Positions 18,649 to 30,464 of a stretch of DNA of 64,000 nucleotides are shown piece after piece. A program made the translations under genes and the position numbers. The DNA lies in contig NZ_AUNI01000017.1 of assembly GCF_000447795.1 (NCBI RefSeq), positions 124,001 through 188,000 of the forward strand, in the 5' to 3' direction. This DNA comes from Bacteriovorax sp. Seq25_V. Its GTDB lineage: Bacteria; Bdellovibrionota; Bacteriovoracia; Bacteriovoracales; Bacteriovoracaceae. Numbering within the stretch: position 1 is the stretch's first letter; each line of letters starts with the position of its first letter. Under the pieces are notes generated by a model. The model made no database searches. It was not told the DNA's origin and saw only the letters and a list, made by a program, of their open reading frames with translations.

Positions 18649-19302
18649 ATGGAAGGTAATACTTTAGGTACAGTCAACACGATTGCCGCTTTTTTCCAAG
18701 GCGGAGGAATGTTCATGTGGGTTATTCTTTTTATTTGGGCAGTTGGAATCGCAATTTCCCTAGAAAGATTTTTTAAACTAAGTTTTAAATTTGACGTTGA
18801 TGGAGCATCATTCATGAATGAACTTCAAAGATATGTTCTAGCAAATGACATCCAAGGAGCTATCAGAGTTTGTTCAGGTTCTGTAGCAGCTCTTCCAAGA
18901 GTTCTTAAAAGTGGTCTTAAAAGAGCAACAAGTACACCAGAGCAAATTCAAAATGCTATCGATGCAACTGCACTTGAAGTGATTCCAAAAGTTGAACTAA
19001 GACTTAACTACCTTCAAATGATTGCAAACATCTCAACTTTATTTGGACTACTTGGAACAATCCAAGGTCTGATTGAATCATTCTCTGCAGTAGCAGCAGC
19101 TGATCCAGCACAAAAAGCAGAACTTCTTGCTACAGGGATTTCTAAAGCGATGAACACAACGTTCCTAGGACTTCTAGTAGCAATCACAATTATGATGGTT
19201 CACACATTCCTAAGCTCTAAGTCAGAGAAAATCATTAATGAGATTGATGAATTTTCAGTAAAGCTTATGGACCTACTTACAACAAAGAAAGAGAAAAACT
19301 AA
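18649..19302 (+). CDS. MotA/TolQ/ExbB-type proton-channel protein (AglR-like)
   Basis: 217 residues. Three membrane segments: about 20-40 (MFMWVILFIWAVGIAISLERF), 125-150 (YLQMIANISTLFGLLGTIQG) and 165-190 (NTTFLGLLVAITIMMVHTFL). The conserved TolQ-family pattern around the second and third helices is clear (TLFGLLGTIQGLIESF, ISKAMNTTFLGLLVAI). It pairs with two ExbD/TolR-type proteins right after it, one large and two small subunits, as in Myxococcus AglRQS. AAGGAG precedes ATG 18649. Its role in gliding is an inference from the facing operon. Confidence 0.88.
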   Translation: MEGNTLGTVNTIAAFFQGGGMFMWVILFIWAVGIAISLERFFKLSFKFDVDGASFMNELQRYVLANDIQGAIRVCSGSVAALPRVLKSGLKRATSTPEQIQNAIDATALEVIPKVELRLNYLQMIANISTLFGLLGTIQGLIESFSAVAAADPAQKAELLATGISKAMNTTFLGLLVAITIMMVHTFLSSKSEKIINEIDEFSVKLMDLLTTKKEKN

Positions 19303-19325
19303 TAGCTCTTTATCGTTGAGGAAAA

Positions 19326-19856
19326 ATGTACAGAAAACCAAGTAGAAAACATAAATCAAAGAATATGACTAAACCGAATCTAATTCCTATTTTAGATTCG
19401 GTCTTCATTTTCATCTTCTTTCTTCTGATGTCAGCTAACTTCGTTAAGATTTTTGAAATCTCTAGTGATGTTCCAATTATCTCTGACCAAGAACCACCAA
19501 AAGAAAAGAAAGATGCACTCAATCTATCATTAAAAATTTACGCAAGTTCTATCACCCTTCACTCAGGAAACAATGAGAGAACAATTTTTAAAGTTGGTAA
19601 GGATGAAAATGGTGACTACGACCTTTACAAGTTAAGAGAGAAGTTAATTCAAATTAAGAAATCTCACTCAGACGAAGATACAGTAATCTTTATGCCAAAA
19701 GCTGATATCGACTACGAAACACTTGTAAAAATCATGGATACAGTTAGAGATCTGAAAGACACTGATCCAGAGATCTGGACAAAAACAAAAGCTGGTGATG
19801 ATAAGAAAGTGACTAAACTTTTCAACAACATCATCTTTGGTGATACACAAAGTTAG
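19326..19856 (+). CDS. ExbD/TolR-family protein, first of two
   Basis: 176 residues. Basic N-terminus, then one membrane helix beginning NLIPILDSVFIFIFFLLMSA that carries the proton-accepting Asp conserved in ExbD/TolR/AglQ/AglS, followed by a periplasmic domain with the usual late helix (VIFMPKADIDYETLVKIMDT). 23 bases after the TolQ-like gene. Expected to form the stator with it and with the next gene. Confidence 0.85.
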   Translation: MYRKPSRKHKSKNMTKPNLIPILDSVFIFIFFLLMSANFVKIFEISSDVPIISDQEPPKEKKDALNLSLKIYASSITLHSGNNERTIFKVGKDENGDYDLYKLREKLIQIKKSHSDEDTVIFMPKADIDYETLVKIMDTVRDLKDTDPEIWTKTKAGDDKKVTKLFNNIIFGDTQS

Positions 19857-19864
19857 GAATAAAT

Positions 19865-20377
19865 ATGAGAAAAGGTTCAATTCGATTCAGAGGAGTCAGA
19901 AAGAAGCGTGAGGTTATCGATATCGATATCACTTCCCTACTCGACATTCTCGTAATCCTTCTAGTTTTTCTTTTAAGAAGCTATGACTCAGCTGGTGTGA
20001 TTCTCAATATCCCGAAAGATATTGTTATTCCAACATCACAATCTAGCTCTTTAAATAACAATGGTGTTGTTGTTCAAGTCTCTCCCAAAAATATTTGGGT
20101 TGATGATAAAGAAGTTGTTAACAACGAGACGACATCGAAGATCTATTCCGCAGACAGACGCTTAATACTACCTCTGTACAATGAGTTAGTATCTAAGAAA
20201 AACGAAGTTCAAAGAATTGCAAAAACAACTCCTAATGCTGACAAGTTCTCCGGTGTTGTTAATCTTGTTATTGATAAAACTGTTAAATACTCCTACATAA
20301 AGAAGCTAATGCACACCTGTGCTGAGGCTGGGTTTCAAAAGTATAAATTTGTCGTTATGGGACAAGAACAAATGTAA
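19865..20377 (+). CDS. ExbD/TolR-family protein, second of two
   Basis: 170 residues. N-terminal IDIDITSLLDILVILLVFLL gives the single membrane helix with the conserved Asp. The periplasmic part includes VVVQVSPKNIWVDDKEV, typical of the family, and a long central insertion. 8 bases after the first ExbD-like gene. The stop codon lies inside the terminator stem. Confidence 0.85.
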   Translation: MRKGSIRFRGVRKKREVIDIDITSLLDILVILLVFLLRSYDSAGVILNIPKDIVIPTSQSSSLNNNGVVVQVSPKNIWVDDKEVVNNETTSKIYSADRRLILPLYNELVSKKNEVQRIAKTTPNADKFSGVVNLVIDKTVKYSYIKKLMHTCAEAGFQKYKFVVMGQEQM

Positions 20378-20400
20378 GGCCAAGAAATTGGCCTTTTTTT
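20376..20400 (+). terminator. Rho-independent terminator of the motor operon
   Basis: AAGGCCAA (20376-20383), GAAA tetraloop, TTGGCCTT (20388-20395), then five T. Perfect stem overlapping the stop codon of the second ExbD-like gene. Confidence 0.9.
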
Positions 20401-20404
20401 ATAT

Positions 20405-21658
20405 CTAAAAGAATCTTGTTAATGAAAAACTAACCTCATCATCTTTTTCAAGAACATAGAGACCTAGTTTATCATTACTGTCATGTGTGAAAGTTCTAAT
20501 ACCTGTTTTAAATTTCCAAAAATCGTTTAAACGCTGTTCGTATGTTAGAAAAAATAACATTTCATTTTTTCTTTGCAGGTCATAGAAAACACCGAAACGA
20601 AATTCCTTCCCATAAGCATCATTTAAAGAAAGACGATGTCCAAGGAAGAGATCATTTTGAAAAACAGAAAGCTCCTCTCTCTTGTGACTACTATCATCCG
20701 CAAATACGGCCTGGTATTCGGTAAAGAAAGTTGAATCCCACCCATTATCCCATGTCTTTGAGTACTCATGTCCTATAGCAATCGTTTTCTGATCCTTAAA
20801 TCCAACAAAGCCACCAGTAGAAAGAACAAATTTCTCAGACTTCTTAAATTTTGAGCCCAAGAACTCTAACTTAAATGTACTATCATCCACAAATAACGTT
20901 GAGGCCATTCCGTAATCAAGAACCTCTCCGTAATATGCAGCTAAATTCCCATAAGGAATTGCTCCGAGAGTTGGATTGATAGTATATGCATGATACCCAA
21001 GCAGTGGGCGATTTCTGTCGATATGATTTAGGGCAAATAGGTGAAAATCAAAATCACCAATTTGTTTCTGCAAAGAGATTCCATATTGATGAGATTCTTT
21101 TTTCTCAGTTAAGTTATTTCCATCAAAATGATAAGACTTTTCAGGACGTACTCCATCAGTAATTCTTGTAGACTTAGTTGGATAAAAGCTTTTTTCAAAA
21201 AATGGGAAATAAAAAAGTTTAAGATCACCGAGTAAAGACTTGAAAGAATAAGAAAGAGTTAACTCCCCCTTTTTATCAAAATCTTCAAGGTCACCGTCAA
21301 AATAGCGAGAATTAACAATATTTGCAGGATGAAATGCTTCCATTTTACTCCAAGTAAAGACCTGGTATCCTGCGGTATAAGAATTACCAAAAAAATCGGT
21401 ACTCTTATAATATAGCTCATTAAAGTTAATGTATGAGTTATCTCGACTCGTCTGGTTTACCTTACCAACGATATCCACATAAAAATTACCACCAAGAAAC
21501 GCAGAAGAGTCCTGCACCTGAAATGATGAGAAAGCCATTTGATTATCTTGAGACGACTTCTCATGAATGTAACGGGTAAAATTAAAGCCTATCTCTCCAC
21601 GAGAATCTGCTAAGACAGGACCAGCAATTAGTGAAGCAACAACAATAAGACGTTTCAT
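20405..21658 (-). CDS. Outer-membrane beta-barrel, porin-like (DUF1302-like)
   Basis: 417 residues. Signal peptide MKRLIVVASLIAGPVLA, then alternating aromatic-rich strands throughout and a C-terminal Phe (SFSLTRFF). The start shares one base with the stop of the LolA-like gene (TAATG), so the two are coupled. Pairs of a DUF1302-type barrel with a LolA-like DUF occur in other bacteria, often next to RND-type lipid transporters; no such transporter is seen here. It is the last gene of the eight-gene operon from 30464. Confidence 0.75.
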   Translation of the reverse strand: MKRLIVVASLIAGPVLADSRGEIGFNFTRYIHEKSSQDNQMAFSSFQVQDSSAFLGGNFYVDIVGKVNQTSRDNSYINFNELYYKSTDFFGNSYTAGYQVFTWSKMEAFHPANIVNSRYFDGDLEDFDKKGELTLSYSFKSLLGDLKLFYFPFFEKSFYPTKSTRITDGVRPEKSYHFDGNNLTEKKESHQYGISLQKQIGDFDFHLFALNHIDRNRPLLGYHAYTINPTLGAIPYGNLAAYYGEVLDYGMASTLFVDDSTFKLEFLGSKFKKSEKFVLSTGGFVGFKDQKTIAIGHEYSKTWDNGWDSTFFTEYQAVFADDSSHKREELSVFQNDLFLGHRLSLNDAYGKEFRFGVFYDLQRKNEMLFFLTYEQRLNDFWKFKTGIRTFTHDSNDKLGLYVLEKDDEVSFSLTRFF

Positions 21659-22416
21659 TATCTTAATGCATCCTTCGTAAAAATCCCTTCAGAGAGTTTC
21701 ACACCAAGCTTTCTATTTTCCCAAATAAAAATAGACTGTTTTTTATTTTGAACATTATTCATTTCGATCTGATTTGGGCGGTAAATCGTCTTTTTACCAA
21801 CTTTATAGGCTTTAATATCCGAAAATTTTCCGATCTTAACTAATTCATTACGCTTATTGTAATACTCTGACTTAATAGTTGTGAGATATTTTTCAGAGAC
21901 ATAAAGGATAACCTTACTGTAAGAGCTATTACCTTTCGCCACTCTTTCAAGAACCCAAACTTTTTGCTTATCTAACTTTTCTTCTCTTAAAAAATTGAAA
22001 GTATATTTCTCTATAGCCTGACCGCCAAGATCTTCAAAAGAAAACTCACTCCCCATAAACGAACTTCCCTTCGTCTTTGAGTTGATTCTTTTTACTCGCT
22101 TAAGAGATGGAAGAAATAACCACTGGTCATCGTCATCATCTTGCTTTGCCCAAGTCAGAAGCTTTGTACCTTTCACATCTAGTGGTTTTACAAAGTTCAT
22201 AATTGTTCGGTCCATATCTTTAAGCTCTATTGAACTTCCTTCCATTTCTCTTTCGATTTGCTTTCCTGAAGAGTCAATTAACACTAACTTCATACTTGAA
22301 GTTTCTCCGACATAGCCATCGTTTGCAAGATCCATCTTCTTTGCAATTTCTAAACCCTTCTCCATTGAGGCCAAGGACATAATAGAGAACAAACAACATG
22401 CAATAAACTTTTTCAT
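21658..22416 (-). CDS. Outer-membrane lipoprotein-sorting (LolA-like) periplasmic protein
   Basis: 252 residues. Signal peptide MKKFIACCLFSIMSLAS, then a LolA/LolB-like half-barrel of the PF17131 type: MKLVLIDSSGKQIEREME, KPLDVKGTKLLTWAK, WLFLPSLKRVKRINSKTKGS, GSEFSFEDLG, and late KSEYYNKRNELVKIGKF. Expected to bind lipid or a lipoprotein acyl chain in the periplasm. It is coupled to the barrel downstream and lies 6 bases after the FHA protein gene. Confidence 0.82.
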   Translation of the reverse strand: MKKFIACCLFSIMSLASMEKGLEIAKKMDLANDGYVGETSSMKLVLIDSSGKQIEREMEGSSIELKDMDRTIMNFVKPLDVKGTKLLTWAKQDDDDDQWLFLPSLKRVKRINSKTKGSSFMGSEFSFEDLGGQAIEKYTFNFLREEKLDKQKVWVLERVAKGNSSYSKVILYVSEKYLTTIKSEYYNKRNELVKIGKFSDIKAYKVGKKTIYRPNQIEMNNVQNKKQSIFIWENRKLGVKLSEGIFTKDALR

Positions 22417-22422
22417 ATAAAC

Positions 22423-24354
22423 CTACATCTGCTTCGCTTGAATATTTAGTGGTGTATTTACTGCAACTTCACCACCACCTTTTGGTTGTGGAAACTGAAT
22501 TGTCTTTAAGTGATTAACAACACAATCTCTTGTTGCTTTCGGCAACGATGATCCTTTGGAAGAAGCTGATGCCTTTGTTACGTGCCCCGAAGGCCCAATC
22601 ACGAAATTAAGCATCAACACACCCTCAACAGCAGCTTGCCTAACATCAAGCTCTTTTTGTTGACAGTACTGAAACTGTGGTGCGTTTTCCAGTAGAATTC
22701 TATAGATATCATTTCTATCGATTGACCCAAGAATAACTTCTTTATATGGAACTCCGGCAATATAAACTTGTTTTTTCTGCACAAGACCATCAGTTCCATA
22801 ACTAGACTCTAGAGTTCCTCTAGTTCTACTTGTAAGCGATCCTACACTGGCATCAACATTTGCCTTTTCGATTTGCGCTGAAGAATTCGAAGCAATAGCA
22901 TTATTATCCTGAAATGATACTGCTGCTCCTCCTGTATTTGTTGATGAACTTAGAGATCCACCCTTTGCCATTAAACTTGAAATTGATGAGCTAAAGTCAG
23001 CTGACTTATAAGTATCAACATTCCCTTTAAAGTTCTTATTGGCGACGTTTGTTCTCGTTGTAGTTTTAGCCGTAGTTTTTCCAGGTTTACCAGCAGACTT
23101 CTTTGTCTGTGTAACTTTAGTCACATTATTTTTTGGTCCTTTAACTGGATTTCCTTTCTTTGGAGTGTTTGCATTATTATTCTTAGCAGTAACATCTCCC
23201 TTACTCTTAACCTCTTTCTGGGCAGTCTCTTTAACTGCAACCTTAGGCTTTTCAGGAGTTTTCTTTACAACTTCTTTTTCCTTAACGATTTCTTTAACAA
23301 CTTCATTTTGTTTAGAAACTCTAAGTTTCTTTGGCTTATATAAAATTGTCGCAATTCTTTCAGGAACTTTCTCTTTTTCAAGTTCAGGGTCAACTTCAAA
23401 CATACTCATGAATGAAACGAAACCAGTAACAAAAATCAAACATAGAAGTAAGTACTTCTTAAATTCTGTATCTCTTCTTAAAATTGGAGCTGACTTAACA
23501 AATGGAGGGGCTTCATCACCGCGAACAAAGATTCGAATATCACCATTTTCAAACAAGTGAATATCATCACCACCTAAGACCATACTATCTGACTTATCAT
23601 CTGAAAATTTCTTGTGTTCAAACCCTGGGATTGTATGAAGAAATACTTCGCTACCTTTAATGTCAACAATCGGTAACTTCTCATCTTTACCTAGATATGG
23701 GAACTCAATATCTTGTAACTTCTTTGCAACACCAGCAAGGTGATAGCGACCATTCTCCATTGAAAGATAGTCAACTGAAAGAACTTTGTTTTTAAAAAGT
23801 ATAACTACTTCAGCGGCTTTCTTCCCAACTGTGTATTTAAAAATTGGATATATTTCATCTTGATCTTCAAAAATATATTCACTGAACATAAATGCAGGAT
23901 CAGCTTCCAAAGGATGATTTTCATCATACTCAACTTCTACTTCTTTATTCAAAACCCTAACAGGCATAGTCGGCAATGGTTTATTGAAGTTTTCAGAAAC
24001 AACTGGAGCCTCTGCGATCACTGGAGCAGTTGGAGGAAGTGGTGGATTTGGTAGCTTTTTGCTGGCTGCAACTTCAAAAGAAAACACTCTGTTTCCTATT
24101 GAGATTTGGTCACCCTCTTTAATTGAAGTAGCAACAACGTCCTGGCCATTCACTTTAACAATTGAACTTGGTGCAAGATTATATAGTTTCCAATCATTAT
24201 TAACATTTTCGAGTAAACAATGGATTGGTTCGACATTCCCCTTTCTAAGTTGAATATCAGCAGTATCTCCTGAACCAATAATCAATCTCTTCTTTACAGG
24301 AATTCTTAATGCTCGACTTCCATCATTTAGTTGAAACGATTTATTCTCATTCAC
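22423..24354 (-). CDS. FHA domain, membrane helix and AgmX/PglI C-terminal (TonB-like) protein
   Basis: 643 residues. FHA domain at about 20-95 (RLIIGSGDTADIQL, IHCLLEN, VNGQ), cytoplasmic linker with a second folded region (about 155-285), one membrane helix at 300-319, a periplasmic Lys/Pro/Thr-rich spacer (about 325-440) and a C-terminal AgmX/PglI domain (about 545-643: FQYCQQKELDV, GVLMLNFVIGPSGHV, RDCVVNHLKTIQFPQPKGGG) with two cysteines. This layout is that of gliding-machine proteins which cross the inner membrane and contact the TolQ/R-type motor. Phosphothreonine sensing by the FHA domain is inferred. Confidence 0.9.
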   Translation of the reverse strand: MNENKSFQLNDGSRALRIPVKKRLIIGSGDTADIQLRKGNVEPIHCLLENVNNDWKLYNLAPSSIVKVNGQDVVATSIKEGDQISIGNRVFSFEVAASKKLPNPPLPPTAPVIAEAPVVSENFNKPLPTMPVRVLNKEVEVEYDENHPLEADPAFMFSEYIFEDQDEIYPIFKYTVGKKAAEVVILFKNKVLSVDYLSMENGRYHLAGVAKKLQDIEFPYLGKDEKLPIVDIKGSEVFLHTIPGFEHKKFSDDKSDSMVLGGDDIHLFENGDIRIFVRGDEAPPFVKSAPILRRDTEFKKYLLLCLIFVTGFVSFMSMFEVDPELEKEKVPERIATILYKPKKLRVSKQNEVVKEIVKEKEVVKKTPEKPKVAVKETAQKEVKSKGDVTAKNNNANTPKKGNPVKGPKNNVTKVTQTKKSAGKPGKTTAKTTTRTNVANKNFKGNVDTYKSADFSSSISSLMAKGGSLSSSTNTGGAAVSFQDNNAIASNSSAQIEKANVDASVGSLTSRTRGTLESSYGTDGLVQKKQVYIAGVPYKEVILGSIDRNDIYRILLENAPQFQYCQQKELDVRQAAVEGVLMLNFVIGPSGHVTKASASSKGSSLPKATRDCVVNHLKTIQFPQPKGGGEVAVNTPLNIQAKQM

Positions 24355-24366
24355 ATGAGGCTCCTA

Positions 24367-24612
24367 TTAACGAATCTTCTCAAGCCCTCTCATCATTTCG
24401 AAATGAAAATTTGGCTTTGAAGGTAATTTATTTTTAAATTTTCTTAAATATCTTTCTGAAACAGTAATTTCTCCAGGGGCACCGAGTTCCCCTTCAACCT
24501 TAATTTCACCAAGGTTAATTTCTTCGTATTTTTTATATTTATAGATAACTTTTTCTTGTGAAAAAGCTGATACAGAAAAAATGAATGTTGCTACTACTAA
24601 TAAGAATCTCAT
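24367..24612 (-). CDS. Small periplasmic protein in the Agl/Glt-like operon
   Basis: 81 residues. Signal peptide MRFLLVVATFIFSVSAFS, then KYKKYEEINLGEIKVEGELG and APGEITVSERYLRKFKNKL. It starts one base after the stop of the TPR lipoprotein and lies 12 bases before the FHA protein. The position and the EINLGEIKVEG-type segment suggest a small conserved component of this machine. No named family. Confidence 0.72.
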   Translation of the reverse strand: MRFLLVVATFIFSVSAFSQEKVIYKYKKYEEINLGEIKVEGELGAPGEITVSERYLRKFKNKLPSKPNFHFEMMRGLEKIR

Positions 24613-24613
24613 T

Positions 24614-25504
24614 TTAAAGCCTCATAATTGTATTCATAATATCGCTTTGTTTCTTCGATAAATTTTGACCACGTAAATAATCAGATACTTTTTCTACATT
24701 CTTACTTCCTGCTAGCTTATAGCTATATAGAAGTGCTAAAGAAAAATCGATTCGAGACAATTGGTCACTAGGAACCTTAGCAAGATAGTTAAGTGCACCC
24801 TGTGCATCTTTTTTATAAAGTTCAACATAAGCAAGTGATAGAAGAACATCCTTATCCTTAGCATCACTTCTTAAAACTCTTGCAAGCATTCCGTTAGCCT
24901 TGTCGAGAAGACCATATTTAATATAAACATTTGCAAGGTTATACATTGGTGTTTTTGCAGAATTTTTGACATTCAAAGCTTGTTTAAAAGCTGCAACTGC
25001 TTTCTCATCTTTTCCTTCACGTAAGTAAACAACACCAAGATTATTCAAAGCTGGCAAGTAGTCCTTATCTAGCGAGATTGCCTTATTAAAAAATACTTTT
25101 GCGCGTCGATATTCGCCATTTTTTAAGTAGCAAGAAGCTAACTGGTTCCAATATGAAGGATTCGCTTTATATTTTGGATAAAGCTTATCAAGCATATCCA
25201 TTCCCTCTTGAGTTTTTCCAAGATAGCAAAGTCCAGAGACTCCAGTCATTTTCTCATCAAGCTCTTTTATTTTTCCAGAGTCTACTTTTGCAAGAGTCTC
25301 ATCTTTAAGGGCATCATCAACAAGATCACCAATTACATGATAATCTCCTCTCTCATTATATCTTATTTGCTGAACTGGTTTAAAATCATCATTAGTAAGA
25401 CTATCTAGCTCAAGCTGTAACTCAGACTTCGTTAGCTCTTTTTCAGTTTGTGAAGATGAACAAGAAACTAGAAATAGCATTGCTAGTAGTAGTGTAAATT
25501 TCAT
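24614..25504 (-). CDS. TPR lipoprotein (GltE/AglT-like)
   Basis: 297 residues from ATG 25504, one base after the upstream stop. A longer frame to 25603 would overlap that gene and lose the signal. The N-terminus MKFTLLLAMLFLVSCSSS is a lipoprotein signal with lipidated Cys15. Then at least four TPR units (e.g. PSYWNQLASCYLKNGEYRRA, LPALNNLGVVYLREGKDEKA). Resembles the TPR lipoproteins of myxobacterial gliding clusters in layout. Most likely anchored in the outer or inner membrane facing the periplasm. Confidence 0.83.
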   Translation of the reverse strand: MKFTLLLAMLFLVSCSSSQTEKELTKSELQLELDSLTNDDFKPVQQIRYNERGDYHVIGDLVDDALKDETLAKVDSGKIKELDEKMTGVSGLCYLGKTQEGMDMLDKLYPKYKANPSYWNQLASCYLKNGEYRRAKVFFNKAISLDKDYLPALNNLGVVYLREGKDEKAVAAFKQALNVKNSAKTPMYNLANVYIKYGLLDKANGMLARVLRSDAKDKDVLLSLAYVELYKKDAQGALNYLAKVPSDQLSRIDFSLALLYSYKLAGSKNVEKVSDYLRGQNLSKKQSDIMNTIMRL

Positions 25505-25505
25505 C

Positions 25506-28340
25506 TTATAACCCTCTCTTATCCATAAGAACGCTCTCATTATCGTGGTAGAAATCAACTGAATTTCGTGCCCTTGCCCCATATGTTTTAGAAAGTACCT
25601 CATTCTTTAAGACTTGCTCTGCAAGTTCTTTTTCAAATTCAAAGGCTTTCCCTTTCAAAGGAGTAATCAATGGCGCCATACCTTTTTTAAACGATGCTAA
25701 AAATTCTGGCTCCTTATTATCTGGAACAAAATTTTCAATTTCCGTTGCAATATCTGTATAAGCTTTAATTAGAATTTCATATGTCTGAACAGTCCCCTCT
25801 CCAGAACCAACAGCTAGTACACGTGCAGCAAGACCAGTTAATTGATTTAACATTCCTAATTTCTTTTTAAGTAATTGGTTATATTTGTCGACTGGAAATA
25901 CTAATTTAATACTAGATATAGAATCCGCTAATCTCTTAACAGACTTAATTTCTTGAAGTGCATAAAAGTCAAAACCATCAACACCAATTAGAGATTTATT
26001 TTTAACTCTCTTGTAATTTGCATAGAAACGCTTAACAAGATCAGATGGTCCCGTACTTCCTCTTTCCTCGAAAAGCATCAAAAGAGATCCTAAGTTCCTA
26101 GTGAGAACTGTACTATCATTTGAATACTTATCTAACTGGTAATACATTGCGACCGCTTGCTCTATAGCTTTAACTTCAATGTAATAATCGAACAACTGTC
26201 CTGCAATCATTGACCTAGTCTTGTTATCTATCGAGCATTTTTCAGTGCTTCTTAGATAATTTGTCAGAGAAGGTTCCTTACCAGAAGCGATCCCCATAAT
26301 CAGGTAATTATTTATCAACTCGTATTTTTGTGAGTTTTTAACTGAGCAAGTTTTATTAAGAATATCCTCAGTAACCTTTAGACCTTCATCAAAACGTTGA
26401 CGTAAATATAATTCTTTAGTCATTAATGAGAATGAATCCATGTACTTTGTAACTTCGCTAACAGTCATCTCGCTAATCGCTCTTTGCGCCCATTGTGACA
26501 TAAGCTTCATGTTACCACTCTCATAGAATAGTACTGCGATATTGTAAGCTGCGTTTCTCTTCGCCTCAGCTGAAGTGCTTTTCTCTTGATAAATAGTTAA
26601 ATAGCCTTTTAAAGCATAAACTTTATCACCCTTACTATTTGCCTTTTGAACATTTTCAAATTGAGTAAGAAGTACAATTTTATTTAGGCCATCGACGAAT
26701 CCTCTTCTTAGTGGAACATTTAATGTTTTAAGTTGCTCAACAAATGAAAATAGTTCCTCTCTATTGTTTTGCTTCTTATGAAGATCAACAATACGCCCAA
26801 TCATCGCCTCATTCTTATTAATATTTTTTGGAAAGATTTTCACGTACTGAAAGAAGACTTGCATAGCCCCCTTAACATCACCCTTTTCATCAATTAAATA
26901 AGAAAATAATTTCTCGACGGCCTTACCTTTCTTATCGATATTTGATTCAAGTTTGATGTAATCAAGGTAGATTTTTTCAAAATATTTTTCTCTAGTAACC
27001 TTCTTAACACCTTTCGCATTAATAGCGATAAGCATTCCAACGAGAGACCTTTGATAAAATTTAGAACTTTCATTCCCAATACTTCTAACAGCATCGTATT
27101 CAACAAGAGCATTATCGAAGTCATTCGCGGCATAAAGTGCTTCAGCTGCATAGAAGTGAGATTGCTCTGTTAACTTTGGATCTATCGCTTTTGCTGCGTA
27201 ATAAAGATCCTTCGTTTGCCCTGATTTTTCCTTCATTACAGACGGTCGACTCTTATTATGACTCAGCCCTAATTCTTTCTGCAATAATGCTGCACGCTTA
27301 GTGATATAAAACAAAGCTTCTTTTGTCTGTTCAGCACTTAGCTTTTCTTTAAGCTTCACAACTTCATTAGCGTACTGGACGAATGCATCATTTCTATTGT
27401 ATTTGTCATAGATACTCAAAAGCTCAAGAAGTGACTTAATCTTATATTCATCACCTGTTCCATTAAATGCACTCTTAAACATATTTAAAGACTCAGAATA
27501 TTTCTGCTTATCTTTTAACTGCATTCCCATTTCATAGAAATTTTTAGAGAGATCTCCACCAATTGTCTTATAAAAAGAGCTTGCGGCCTTTACATTTCCA
27601 CTATCTGCGTAGAAATATCCAAGATCTCTTTGAGCGGCCTCACCTTTATCTACAAATTTTGAGTTCTTACTTAATTCAAAAACAGTTTTCATCTGAGAGA
27701 TTGCCGTCTTCTTATTATTTACTCTAAAATTTGACCATGAGAGATTGTATAAGTATCTTGTGTACCACTTATCATCACGTATTTGTCTAATAACTGAATC
27801 GTAATATCCCTTTGCTCGTTTAAAATCACCTTCAGAGTAATATATATCCCCTAGAGCAAGTCTAGACTTAATATTTGCAGGACTTCCTGTTTTCGTTCTC
27901 TTAATGGCATTCACAAATAGAGCTTTAGACTTTTTCATATTTTGATTTTCTTTCTCATTGAAAGCTAAAATATAATATACATCTCCAATCCCTTTAAAAT
28001 TTTTAAAGCGCTTTAAAATGAACAAACCTGTTTCTTGAGCTTTTGAGAAATATGACTGAGACTGTCCGTAGAATTTCTTCTTATTTATGTTACGTCTTTC
28101 TTCCAACGACTTACTAAAAAAACTCTGATTTTCAGAATCTCTAATTACTCTTGCTTTCTCAAGATATAGCTCAGCGATACGAAGTAAAATTTCCGGATCT
28201 CTATTATTTGATACCCTACTCATTCGAGATAACTCAGAGAGCTCCATATCAATTACTGAAATAATTTTTGCATTTCTATCATCGCTGGCACTAACTGTTA
28301 AAGTCAGAACGAGTAAAATGATGACTTGTAAAAACTTCAT
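25506..28340 (-). CDS. Large exported TPR protein (GltD/AgmU-like)
   Basis: 944 residues. Signal peptide MKFLQVIILLVLTLTVSAS and then TPR-like helical repeats along nearly the whole length (e.g. NIKSRLALGDIYYSEGDFKR, KYSESLNMFKSAFNG, SHFYAAEALYAANDFDNALV). A periplasmic scaffold is likely. The start shares a base with the previous stop (TAATG at 28342-28338). Size, repeats and position between a TPR exported protein and a TPR lipoprotein match AgmU-type proteins in organisation; homology itself needs a profile search. Confidence 0.8.
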   Translation of the reverse strand: MKFLQVIILLVLTLTVSASDDRNAKIISVIDMELSELSRMSRVSNNRDPEILLRIAELYLEKARVIRDSENQSFFSKSLEERRNINKKKFYGQSQSYFSKAQETGLFILKRFKNFKGIGDVYYILAFNEKENQNMKKSKALFVNAIKRTKTGSPANIKSRLALGDIYYSEGDFKRAKGYYDSVIRQIRDDKWYTRYLYNLSWSNFRVNNKKTAISQMKTVFELSKNSKFVDKGEAAQRDLGYFYADSGNVKAASSFYKTIGGDLSKNFYEMGMQLKDKQKYSESLNMFKSAFNGTGDEYKIKSLLELLSIYDKYNRNDAFVQYANEVVKLKEKLSAEQTKEALFYITKRAALLQKELGLSHNKSRPSVMKEKSGQTKDLYYAAKAIDPKLTEQSHFYAAEALYAANDFDNALVEYDAVRSIGNESSKFYQRSLVGMLIAINAKGVKKVTREKYFEKIYLDYIKLESNIDKKGKAVEKLFSYLIDEKGDVKGAMQVFFQYVKIFPKNINKNEAMIGRIVDLHKKQNNREELFSFVEQLKTLNVPLRRGFVDGLNKIVLLTQFENVQKANSKGDKVYALKGYLTIYQEKSTSAEAKRNAAYNIAVLFYESGNMKLMSQWAQRAISEMTVSEVTKYMDSFSLMTKELYLRQRFDEGLKVTEDILNKTCSVKNSQKYELINNYLIMGIASGKEPSLTNYLRSTEKCSIDNKTRSMIAGQLFDYYIEVKAIEQAVAMYYQLDKYSNDSTVLTRNLGSLLMLFEERGSTGPSDLVKRFYANYKRVKNKSLIGVDGFDFYALQEIKSVKRLADSISSIKLVFPVDKYNQLLKKKLGMLNQLTGLAARVLAVGSGEGTVQTYEILIKAYTDIATEIENFVPDNKEPEFLASFKKGMAPLITPLKGKAFEFEKELAEQVLKNEVLSKTYGARARNSVDFYHDNESVLMDKRGL

Positions 28341-29743
28341 TAATTACACTCCGATTTCAAAGCGAAAACATAGTCTCCAAGCTCATCGGCCCAGAACTCA
28401 CCATTAAATGTCCAAAAGTATTGTTTTTCATTTCTCTTCAGATACTTCACATCTCCCCTAACCGAAGATAATTCTGTATTTGAATACAGTAGGCTCTTTC
28501 TCTTGTTTAAGATTTCAAGTTTAATATAACTCATTCCCATGAACGCTTTATTAAGCTCTGCAAGAGAGATTCTAAGATTCTTCTTAACGTATGACCCTAT
28601 AAGTCTTTGCTGTAGGACAAGCGAGTCCTTTAGATTATTAGCAAGAACTTTTGCTAATCTCTTATTCGAAATAGTTTTAATTTGGTCTAATTCATTCTTT
28701 CCGTTAGAGTAACTCTCAATAAGGTTAAGAAATGCAGGGTCTTTCATTGTCGATGCAAGAAGTTCATTAACAAGATCCACTGAAAATTTTCTTCCTTGGA
28801 TATAGTTATTTATTAGCAAGAAAAAGAATTTCAAATCTTTATTATTCTTAGAGATTAATGTATCAAGCTTTCCTGTATCCTTTTCGTATTTAGAATAAAA
28901 GTTTTCAACAACTTTGGTAGCATCGTCGTAAAGACACATTTTAAGATATGACATTGACCTTAGAACATCGATTTCAGGATTGAAGATATACTGAAGAACT
29001 GGCGCATTGTATGTTACAAGCTTTCCAAGTGTTCTATTATAATCTTCCTTGTAAAAACTATTCCATGCCTCTTCCACTAGAATTTCTGGCCAAACATATG
29101 ATTTTTTATCAAGATCGAGATAAGCCAGTTCAGCTTTATCATATTGTTTTACAGAATAATAAGTTCTCGCAAGGCCAACGATACAAGTGTCCCTATTGAT
29201 AAGTAGCTGTCTCTTCTTTTGAAGTGTTTCAGCTCTTCCAAGTTGAGAGTTTGATTCCTTAATACATCTATCAAATGTATTAATTGCACTTTGCCCACTT
29301 TCCCTCAAAGAAAATACCATTGCCTCTAGTTGCAGAGCAAATGGTTTCACTGGGTGATCAGAGGGAATCGCTCCTCTCAACACTTTTAAAACGTCATCAT
29401 ACTTTCTCTTTCTTAAAAGCTTTTTAGCAAGGAGATACTTCAATGTTGGAGAAGATGATCTTTCTAAATATTCCTCAGGAAGGAGTACGAATTGTCTATC
29501 CCCAACATGTGAGATTACTTCTTCTAATAAAGAATCAAATTTCGCTCTATCAACTTTTGAAGAAGAGACAAGATATTCTTTAATATAAGGTACAGAAGTG
29601 TGAAATAACTTCTGACTTACAAGTTCTTTTATAATCGCAGGATATCTATCAACATGATTTCCCCTAGCTGTTAAATTGGTCCAAATAGAATCAATCGAAA
29701 AGCTATTTAATGATAAAAGACTTAGCAATAATATTTTTTTCAT
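28340..29743 (-). CDS. Exported TPR-containing protein of the same operon
   Basis: 467 residues from ATG 29743 (AGGA upstream; signal peptide MKKILLLSLLSLNSFS). An upstream in-frame start at 29770 gives no clean signal peptide. The mature protein is helical with TPR-like units (SPTLKYLLAKKLLRKRKYDD, IVGLARTYYSVKQYDKAELA). Its start overlaps the barrel gene stop by a few bases and its stop overlaps the next start, so it is tightly coupled. A periplasmic partner of the large TPR protein is likely. Confidence 0.78.
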   Translation of the reverse strand: MKKILLLSLLSLNSFSIDSIWTNLTARGNHVDRYPAIIKELVSQKLFHTSVPYIKEYLVSSSKVDRAKFDSLLEEVISHVGDRQFVLLPEEYLERSSSPTLKYLLAKKLLRKRKYDDVLKVLRGAIPSDHPVKPFALQLEAMVFSLRESGQSAINTFDRCIKESNSQLGRAETLQKKRQLLINRDTCIVGLARTYYSVKQYDKAELAYLDLDKKSYVWPEILVEEAWNSFYKEDYNRTLGKLVTYNAPVLQYIFNPEIDVLRSMSYLKMCLYDDATKVVENFYSKYEKDTGKLDTLISKNNKDLKFFFLLINNYIQGRKFSVDLVNELLASTMKDPAFLNLIESYSNGKNELDQIKTISNKRLAKVLANNLKDSLVLQQRLIGSYVKKNLRISLAELNKAFMGMSYIKLEILNKRKSLLYSNTELSSVRGDVKYLKRNEKQYFWTFNGEFWADELGDYVFALKSECN

Positions 29744-29753
29744 TTCAAGCTTC

Positions 29754-30464
29754 CTAGATATCAATTCCAATCGCGAGCGTCATATCAATATTTTCATACC
29801 AAGCATCACCAGTTGCATTTGCAATCGCTTTCTTCGCTTGATAGTGAACACCATTGATATCAAATCTAACATTCCATGTTTCATTAACAAAAAACTTTGT
29901 CCCAAAGTTCCAAATAACTCCAGAGTGTGTTTCTGTTACATCTGCAGCTGTTGAATCGAAGTCATCAAATTGTGCTCTATTATTTGTTTCTTCAAGCGTC
30001 ACTGCTCCAAGACCAAAAATAAAATCAAGATAGATGATTGAGTTAAATGTATTTATTTTTGTATAGAATGGAGCCCATAAAAGCATTGCCCCGTAATAAC
30101 CATCAACGATCCTTCTAAATGGAATTGTCCCAGAGCCACTCCCAGAGCTTCTTACAGAGGCTGCAGTATCATTTTCAGAACCACTGTTTTTAGAATATAT
30201 CCCTTCAAAGCCAAACTCTTCAGTGAAGAAATAACCAAAGCGTCCTTGGATTGCTGAAGCATCAACAAAAGCTCCAGAGGTTGTTTTTCCATATCCAGCA
30301 CTTAAAGAGAAGCGACCCTTCTTTTTAAATTTACGGTTTTGTAAAACGTAAACTTCTTTATCTTTGTCGAGCCAAGAGAAATCATATAAGTCAGACTCTG
30401 CTCCCCAAACAAATGAACACGTAAGTAATAATGATAATTTTAAAAATTTTCTAACCATAGACAA
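29754..30464 (-). CDS. Outer-membrane beta-barrel of the myxobacterial OMP type (GltA/B-like)
   Basis: 236 residues. Signal peptide MSMVRKFLKLSLLLTCSFVWG, then LDKDKEVYVLQNRKFKKKGR and FSLSAGYGKTTSGAFVDASA, the hallmark start of the barrel family found next to gliding genes in deltaproteobacteria and relatives. Barrel strands continue to the end. A Ser/Gly-rich loop (VRSSGSGSG) probably lies outside the cell. First gene of the minus-strand operon that runs to 20405. Confidence 0.82.
   Translation of the reverse strand: MSMVRKFLKLSLLLTCSFVWGAESDLYDFSWLDKDKEVYVLQNRKFKKKGRFSLSAGYGKTTSGAFVDASAIQGRFGYFFTEEFGFEGIYSKNSGSENDTAASVRSSGSGSGTIPFRRIVDGYYGAMLLWAPFYTKINTFNSIIYLDFIFGLGAVTLEETNNRAQFDDFDSTAADVTETHSGVIWNFGTKFFVNETWNVRFDINGVHYQAKKAIANATGDAWYENIDMTLAIGIDI

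Follow-up and report, generated by a model that had tools for sequence, protein, structure and literature searches.

An Agl/Glt-type trans-envelope locus with a LolA-like carrier and an outer-membrane barrel in Bacteriovorax sp. Seq25_V

Two facing operons in the genome of Bacteriovorax sp. Seq25_V were analysed. They lie within a stretch of 64,000 nucleotides (positions 124,001 to 188,000 of contig NZ_AUNI01000017.1), which is part of contig 17 in a genome of 3.45 Mb and which we call the window in the following; the operons are given in window coordinates. That this locus encodes an Agl/Glt-type machine is strongly supported by sequence comparison. We consider it likely, with a probability of about 0.7, that the locus encodes a force transducer that is driven by protons, spans the envelope and serves surface attachment or movement; a LolA-like carrier and a second barrel would be its accessory module for delivery to the surface.

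The motor operon consists of three plus-strand genes (18649-20377) for one MotA/TolQ/ExbB and two ExbD/TolR proteins. It faces a minus-strand operon of eight genes (30458 to 20405), joined by overlaps or short gaps in the order GltA/B-type barrel, GltC, GltD, GltE lipoprotein, GltF, GltG, LolA-like protein and 417-residue barrel. A gap of 27 bases containing a hairpin separates the two operons. Profiles combining the window with as many as eleven loci of the same family were aligned with those of a Bdellovibrio bacteriovorus-type cluster (locus L089 and relatives), and this comparison is meant by ‘profile match’ below.

18649-19302, plus strand: AglR-type TolQ/ExbB proton-channel subunit, 217 amino acids (PF01618, MotA/ExbB, E 8e-27; profile match to the Bdellovibrio AglR counterpart 100%, 209 columns, 39% identity)
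19326-19856, plus strand: AglQ-type ExbD subunit, 176 amino acids (PF02472, E 3e-14; profile match to the AglQ counterpart 98.4%)
19865-20377, plus strand: AglS-type ExbD subunit, 170 amino acids, putative counterpart of Bd0838 (PF02472, E 1e-14; profile match to the AglS counterpart 99.5%)
29754-30458, minus strand: GltA/GltB-type outer-membrane barrel, about 234 amino acids (TIGR04565, 84 bits, cut-off 60; profile matches to the two barrels of the Bdellovibrio cluster 99.7% and 99.2%)
28340-29743, minus strand: GltC-type exported TPR protein (NCBIfam NF033756, 124 bits, E 7e-36; profile match 99.8%, 376 columns)
25506-28340, minus strand: GltD-type exported TPR protein, 944 amino acids (profile match 100%, 864 columns, 18% identity)
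24614-25504, minus strand: GltE-type TPR lipoprotein, 296 amino acids from the ATG before the lipobox LVSC (profile match 99.8%)
24367-24612, minus strand: GltF-type small exported protein, 81 amino acids (profile match 95.5%, 75 columns)
22423-24354, minus strand: GltG-type protein, 643 amino acids, with a degenerate FHA domain, one transmembrane helix and a periplasmic AgmX/PglI (TonB-like) tail (NF033768, 57 bits, cut-off 40; NCBIfam GltG model 85 bits, E 4e-24; profile match 100%, 601 columns)
21658-22416, minus strand: LolA-like periplasmic carrier, 252 amino acids (PF17131, E 1e-53; PDB relatives 3bk5, 9tp6 and 4z48)
20405-21658, minus strand: outer-membrane beta-barrel of 417 amino acids, partner of the LolA-like protein (family alignment, near-invariant C-terminal Phe)
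20376-20395, plus strand: terminator-like hairpin between the convergent operons, an 8-bp stem followed by a T run (pattern only)

Motor and envelope components and their Bdellovibrio counterparts

The initial annotation had read one TolQ-type and two ExbD-type genes at 18649-20377 on the plus strand, which the PF01618 and PF02472 matches bear out. In the family alignment, the transmembrane residues Asp24 of the AglQ-type and Asp27 of the AglS-type subunit are invariant, as are the transmembrane Thr residues and motifs of the AglR-type subunit across the family set. The proton-channel residues thus appear intact in the window motor, and these residues together with homology suggest that protons are used. 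In the tree, the AglR-type subunit clusters with Agl-type proteins, apart from the TolQ and ExbB of the same genome (support 92/93, under the program's own threshold). Five MotA/ExbB matches were found in the genome. As the other four are flagellar MotA, Tol-Pal, ExbBD and one further MotA/ExbB-type pair, the window motor is the only Agl-type motor found there. The fifth MotA/ExbB-type protein (252 amino acids, G000:C20:240411-243740, locus L005) is followed by a partner of 296 amino acids.

On the minus strand, the initial annotation placed eight genes at 30464-20405. The gene count and the positions of the reading frames stand, and three start codons are better set, from signal peptides, at 30458 (barrel236), 29743 (GltC-like) and 25504 (the lipoprotein, with the lipobox LVSC after this start). 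All components it had described, a myxobacterial-type barrel (TIGR04565), TPR proteins, a TPR lipoprotein, a small periplasmic protein and an FHA/AgmX-PglI protein, were recovered; the last two genes, for the LolA-like protein and the 417-residue barrel, had been counted and left undescribed. In the GltF-type protein, G41, P46, F69 and E72 are invariant together with 33 Bdellovibrionota GltF-type proteins. In the case of GltC and GltG, the full-length NCBIfam equivalog cut-offs are 450 and 650 bits; because the window scores lie under them, both proteins are homologues and not equivalogs by the NCBI standard. The FHA domain of the GltG-type protein scores slightly higher as a YscD-type cytoplasmic domain than as FHA. 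In this domain, Ser at residue 28 replaces the Arg of the canonical GR motif, an Arg that is present in 4 of 11 family members, and phosphopeptide binding is therefore doubtful.

Nine of the eleven window proteins (the barrel, GltC, GltD, GltE, GltF, GltG, AglR, AglQ and AglS) pair one-to-one and collinearly with the L089-type cluster. Off-diagonal profile matches were near zero, with cross-matches confined to the TPR proteins, the two barrels and, at a weak level, the ExbD proteins. Profile-profile alignment gave no partner in this cluster for either the LolA-like protein or the 417-residue barrel. Altogether, the nine collinear matches and the AglR tree uphold the Agl/Glt-like machine that had been proposed initially, and the operon partners, whose absence from gliding relatives would have spoken against it, are present in Bdellovibrio.

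The AglR sequences of L089 and of B. bacteriovorus strain kdesi are almost the same. The genome G048 has four agl/glt loci near 0.41, 0.80, 1.55 and 2.44 Mb, positions that fit the four published operons Bd0412-0420, Bd0828-0838, Bd1473-1483 and Bd2368-2377 (PMC2797640); by position and order, not by locus tags, L089 would thus be Bd0828-0838. Among the four G048 loci, matches to all nine window profiles occur in L089 only, and GltD, GltE, GltF and GltG score higher against this cluster. The proposed correspondence of the window set to Bd0828-0838 rests on gene order and content.

Within the phylum, 178 of 192 genomes contain GltC-type genes. Most genomes of the window's family have two or more GltC matches, and the three genus genomes in the sample have one each. 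Both sets were retrieved from seven family relatives; in five of these (G008, G050, G093, G129 and G164), each set has an AglRQS-type motor. In other families of the phylum, the loci L096, L100, L103 and L105 have a window-type barrel-GltC-GltD-GltF-GltG set with no motor genes in the stretch taken, some being cut by contig ends; in genomes of this kind, AglRQS-type genes accompany a different set elsewhere. Two GltC-type genes (G074:C29:16893-18320 and G132:C27:8090-9502) each contain one in-frame TAG, which may reflect sequencing errors or pseudogenes.

A compact minus-strand set at G000:C9:370196-374085 (L246 and L247) encodes a 197-residue barrel, proteins of 178, 617 and 90 residues and a transmembrane protein of 256 residues. 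Its collinear matches are weak (Glt barrels E 1e-5, GltD-like 6e-5, GltC-like 3e-4, GltG-type 0.004), motor genes are not part of it, and it is possibly a second transducer sharing the single motor.

The window operons are flanked by DNA-repair helicase/nuclease genes on one side and by thioredoxin and SIS-domain genes on the other, flanks that are common to many members of the family. The polarity GTPase MglA is present in the genome, 76% identical to the protein of the relative G008. An absence of MglA from the genus had been considered and was rejected, as PF00025 missed the gene and a protein query found it. In G008 (locus L259), MglA follows a 168-residue protein and recR, an arrangement also reported for Bacteriovorax marinus (PMC3983030). 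The window genus differs from Bdellovibrio, and this MglA arrangement suggests that its family probably includes Halobacteriovorax.

The LolA-like carrier and the 417-residue barrel

Six bases separate the gltG stop from the LolA-like gene, whose stop in turn overlaps the start of the barrel gene. The LolA-like gene follows gltG in six of six genus genomes (G000, G141, G045, G192, G193 and G194), and in the five with a contig long enough to show it, the barrel comes next. In family relatives, the interval between gltG and the motor is filled differently: by FeoB, by small membrane proteins, by a small lipoprotein or by a long exported protein, or it contains nothing long. In other parts of the family and phylum, the LolA-like protein and the barrel form a pair located away from glt. 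Their addition to the glt operon appears genus-specific, and the literature searched has no earlier description of it.

The LolA-like protein of the window is the sole PF17131 match in its genome. Regarding the 417-residue barrel, its relatives gave weak OprD, Wzi and DUF1302 matches, the DUF1302 similarity being seen in one relative. A PDB profile search with the barrel family returned nothing convincing, and single-sequence structure prediction gave a mean predicted local distance difference test score (pLDDT) of 33 and no usable model.

Twenty pair loci, selected from the matches and not at random, were inspected. An RND-size gene lies beside or near the pair in ten, LolA is fused to the end of an RND-size protein in four, and six show neither. 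All three RND-size proteins scanned against Pfam were MMPL, one of them being a fused form. The fused proteins (L148:5477-8608, L155, L157 and L158) are about 1010-1080 amino acids long with a C-terminal LolA-like domain; since the N-terminus in L148 is an MMPL/RND transporter, carrier and pump are fused there. That the window pair had lost its RND partner altogether was rejected, as two MMPL-type RND genes are present in the genome.

Proposed mechanism and alternative explanations

The AglRQS proton motor of M. xanthus reaches the envelope complex via GltG or NfsG, powering gliding with the Glt set or spore-coat transport with the Nfs set, and that AglRQS transmits force through GltG has been established or proposed (PMC3169522, PMC3858216). 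By homology, and with its channel residues intact, the AglR-AglQ-AglS complex of the window would use proton flow across the inner membrane. As in M. xanthus, it would move the GltG-type protein, whose TonB-like tail extends into the periplasm, and the force would pass via GltF, GltD, GltC and the GltE lipoprotein to the outer-membrane barrel. The most likely job would be the moving or tensioning of surface adhesion sites, serving attachment to surfaces or prey and possibly gliding. In the least certain step, the LolA-like protein and its barrel would probably supply the outer membrane or the cell surface with a lipid or lipoprotein at the time the machine is produced.

A role in attachment to prey gains plausibility from B. 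bacteriovorus, in which a transposon mutant of Bd0838, annotated as AglS, no longer attaches to its prey, kills it or rounds it (PMC6561027). The means by which Bdellovibrio and its relatives glide and hold on to prey have yet to be worked out (PMC13104615), and the four overlapping agl/glt sets in B. bacteriovorus blur the genetics. In a genus with a single Agl-type motor, one clean deletion could address attachment, invasion or gliding. Likewise, the LolA-like/barrel pair suggests a testable link between the machine and the delivery of surface lipids or lipoproteins.

Several observations weigh against this picture of a force transducer with an accessory module. GltJ was not found in the whole genome, the best match reaching 21 bits against a cut-off of 450. 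GltH, GltI, GltK and CglB were not recognised among the operon proteins, no one-by-one search for these four having been made. Since Bdellovibrio is also reported to be without GltH, GltI, GltJ and GltK (Luciano 2011, PMC3169522), the myxobacterial style of coupling would be absent or different. Regarding the correspondence to Bd0828-0838, the barrel, GltC and both ExbD proteins score higher against the 1.55-Mb cluster (Bd1473-1483), and the AglR tree joins the window clade to neither of the two. The two MMPL-type RND genes (C11 and C8) are unlinked to the window locus, and because they remain in the genome the LolA-like pair may serve them.

One alternative is that the machine works as a true gliding motor in the manner of M. 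xanthus, with complexes that travel along the cell and propel it. We regard this as possible but somewhat short of an even chance. Luciano 2011 named bacteria with AglRQS and GltA-G as potential gliders, and Bdellovibrio glides (PMC3169522); the window has this set with one GltA/B-type barrel and not two, and its genome has MglA. However, GltJ is missing from the matches, paralogous sets in M. xanthus serve other tasks such as spore-coat assembly by Nfs, and the aglQ reported as surface-induced in B. bacteriovorus is bd1480, a member of a different cluster. Less probable, at odds we would put near one in four, is an Agl-Nfs-like envelope transporter, with a surface polymer as its cargo in place of a function in motility or attachment. 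The barrel-C-D-E-F-G order of the single nfsA-H cluster recurs here and AglRQS drives the movement of the Nfs spore-coat polymer (PMC3858216), but no polysaccharide export genes were recognised beside the operon, the neighbours being those for helicase/nuclease, thioredoxin and SIS-domain proteins. We give hardly any credence to a generic Tol-Pal or TonB-ExbBD energiser, an outcome that the initial annotation had named as contrary to its proposal. TolQ is indeed the best named NCBIfam model for the large subunit, yet its 65 bits lie far under the cut-off of 221 (ExbB 31 bits, cut-off 206), and the genome has its own Tol-Pal and ExbBD sets elsewhere, from which the tree separates the AglR-type protein.

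For the LolA-like/barrel pair itself, the scales are level on whether it is unrelated to the Glt machine, having arrived in the operon by chance and still serving an RND exporter encoded elsewhere. Such a chance linkage agrees with many relatives having the pair next to an RND-size gene or joined to one and others having it unlinked, and with the RND genes kept at C11 and C8. Against it stand the conserved arrangement in all six genus genomes and, in the window, the 6-base gap after gltG and the overlapping LolA/barrel junction. A bolder idea, which we consider improbable, is that in this genus the carrier and barrel have been taken into the Agl/Glt machine. The outcome would be a force transducer and exporter in one, whose Agl-type motor, replacing an RND pump or acting beside one, drives or positions the delivery of a lipid or lipoprotein adhesin to the cell surface.

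Comparison with known systems

A scan of genome contigs gave 80 loci, nearly all from Bdellovibrionota and a few with vague or odd labels. The comparison with Myxococcus therefore rests on NCBIfam models and the literature and not on direct sequence comparison. The Agl-Glt system of M. xanthus (clusters G1, G2 and M1) shares AglRQS, GltC-G and a GltA/B-type barrel with the window, with similar sizes and domain layout (Luciano 2011, Table 1). It differs in having GltJ and two GltA/B barrels, compared with one such barrel in the window operon and no GltJ found in the genome. Homologues of all genes of the group B core of Luciano 2011 (AglR, AglQ, AglS, GltC, GltD, GltE and GltG) are present in the window locus, and so are GltF and the GltA/B barrel of group A. 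In kind, the window core has thus been known since that study, and Bdellovibrio has four such sets. In the case of Nfs, the likeness lies in a single cluster with the same gene order that works with the Agl motor; the nfs cluster is without motor genes of its own and has a spore-coat role, whereas the window cluster has motor genes.

Also among the closest known systems is the B. bacteriovorus cluster that is probably Bd0828-0838, with nine proteins corresponding one-to-one in the same order at low identity (17-39%). In that cluster, the motor genes come after gltG in the same orientation, two GltA/B-type barrels are encoded and the LolA-like/barrel pair is absent, while in the window the motor faces the minus-strand operon, one such barrel is encoded and the pair is present. 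As for this pair, the AmeABCD-type HAE3 RND set of Castellaniella (PMC6394551) includes an RND transporter (AmeD), for which the window locus has no gene, and the DUF1302 similarity of the barrel family is weak; like the last two genes of the window operon, it combines an outer-membrane barrel with a periplasmic protein of the LolA superfamily.

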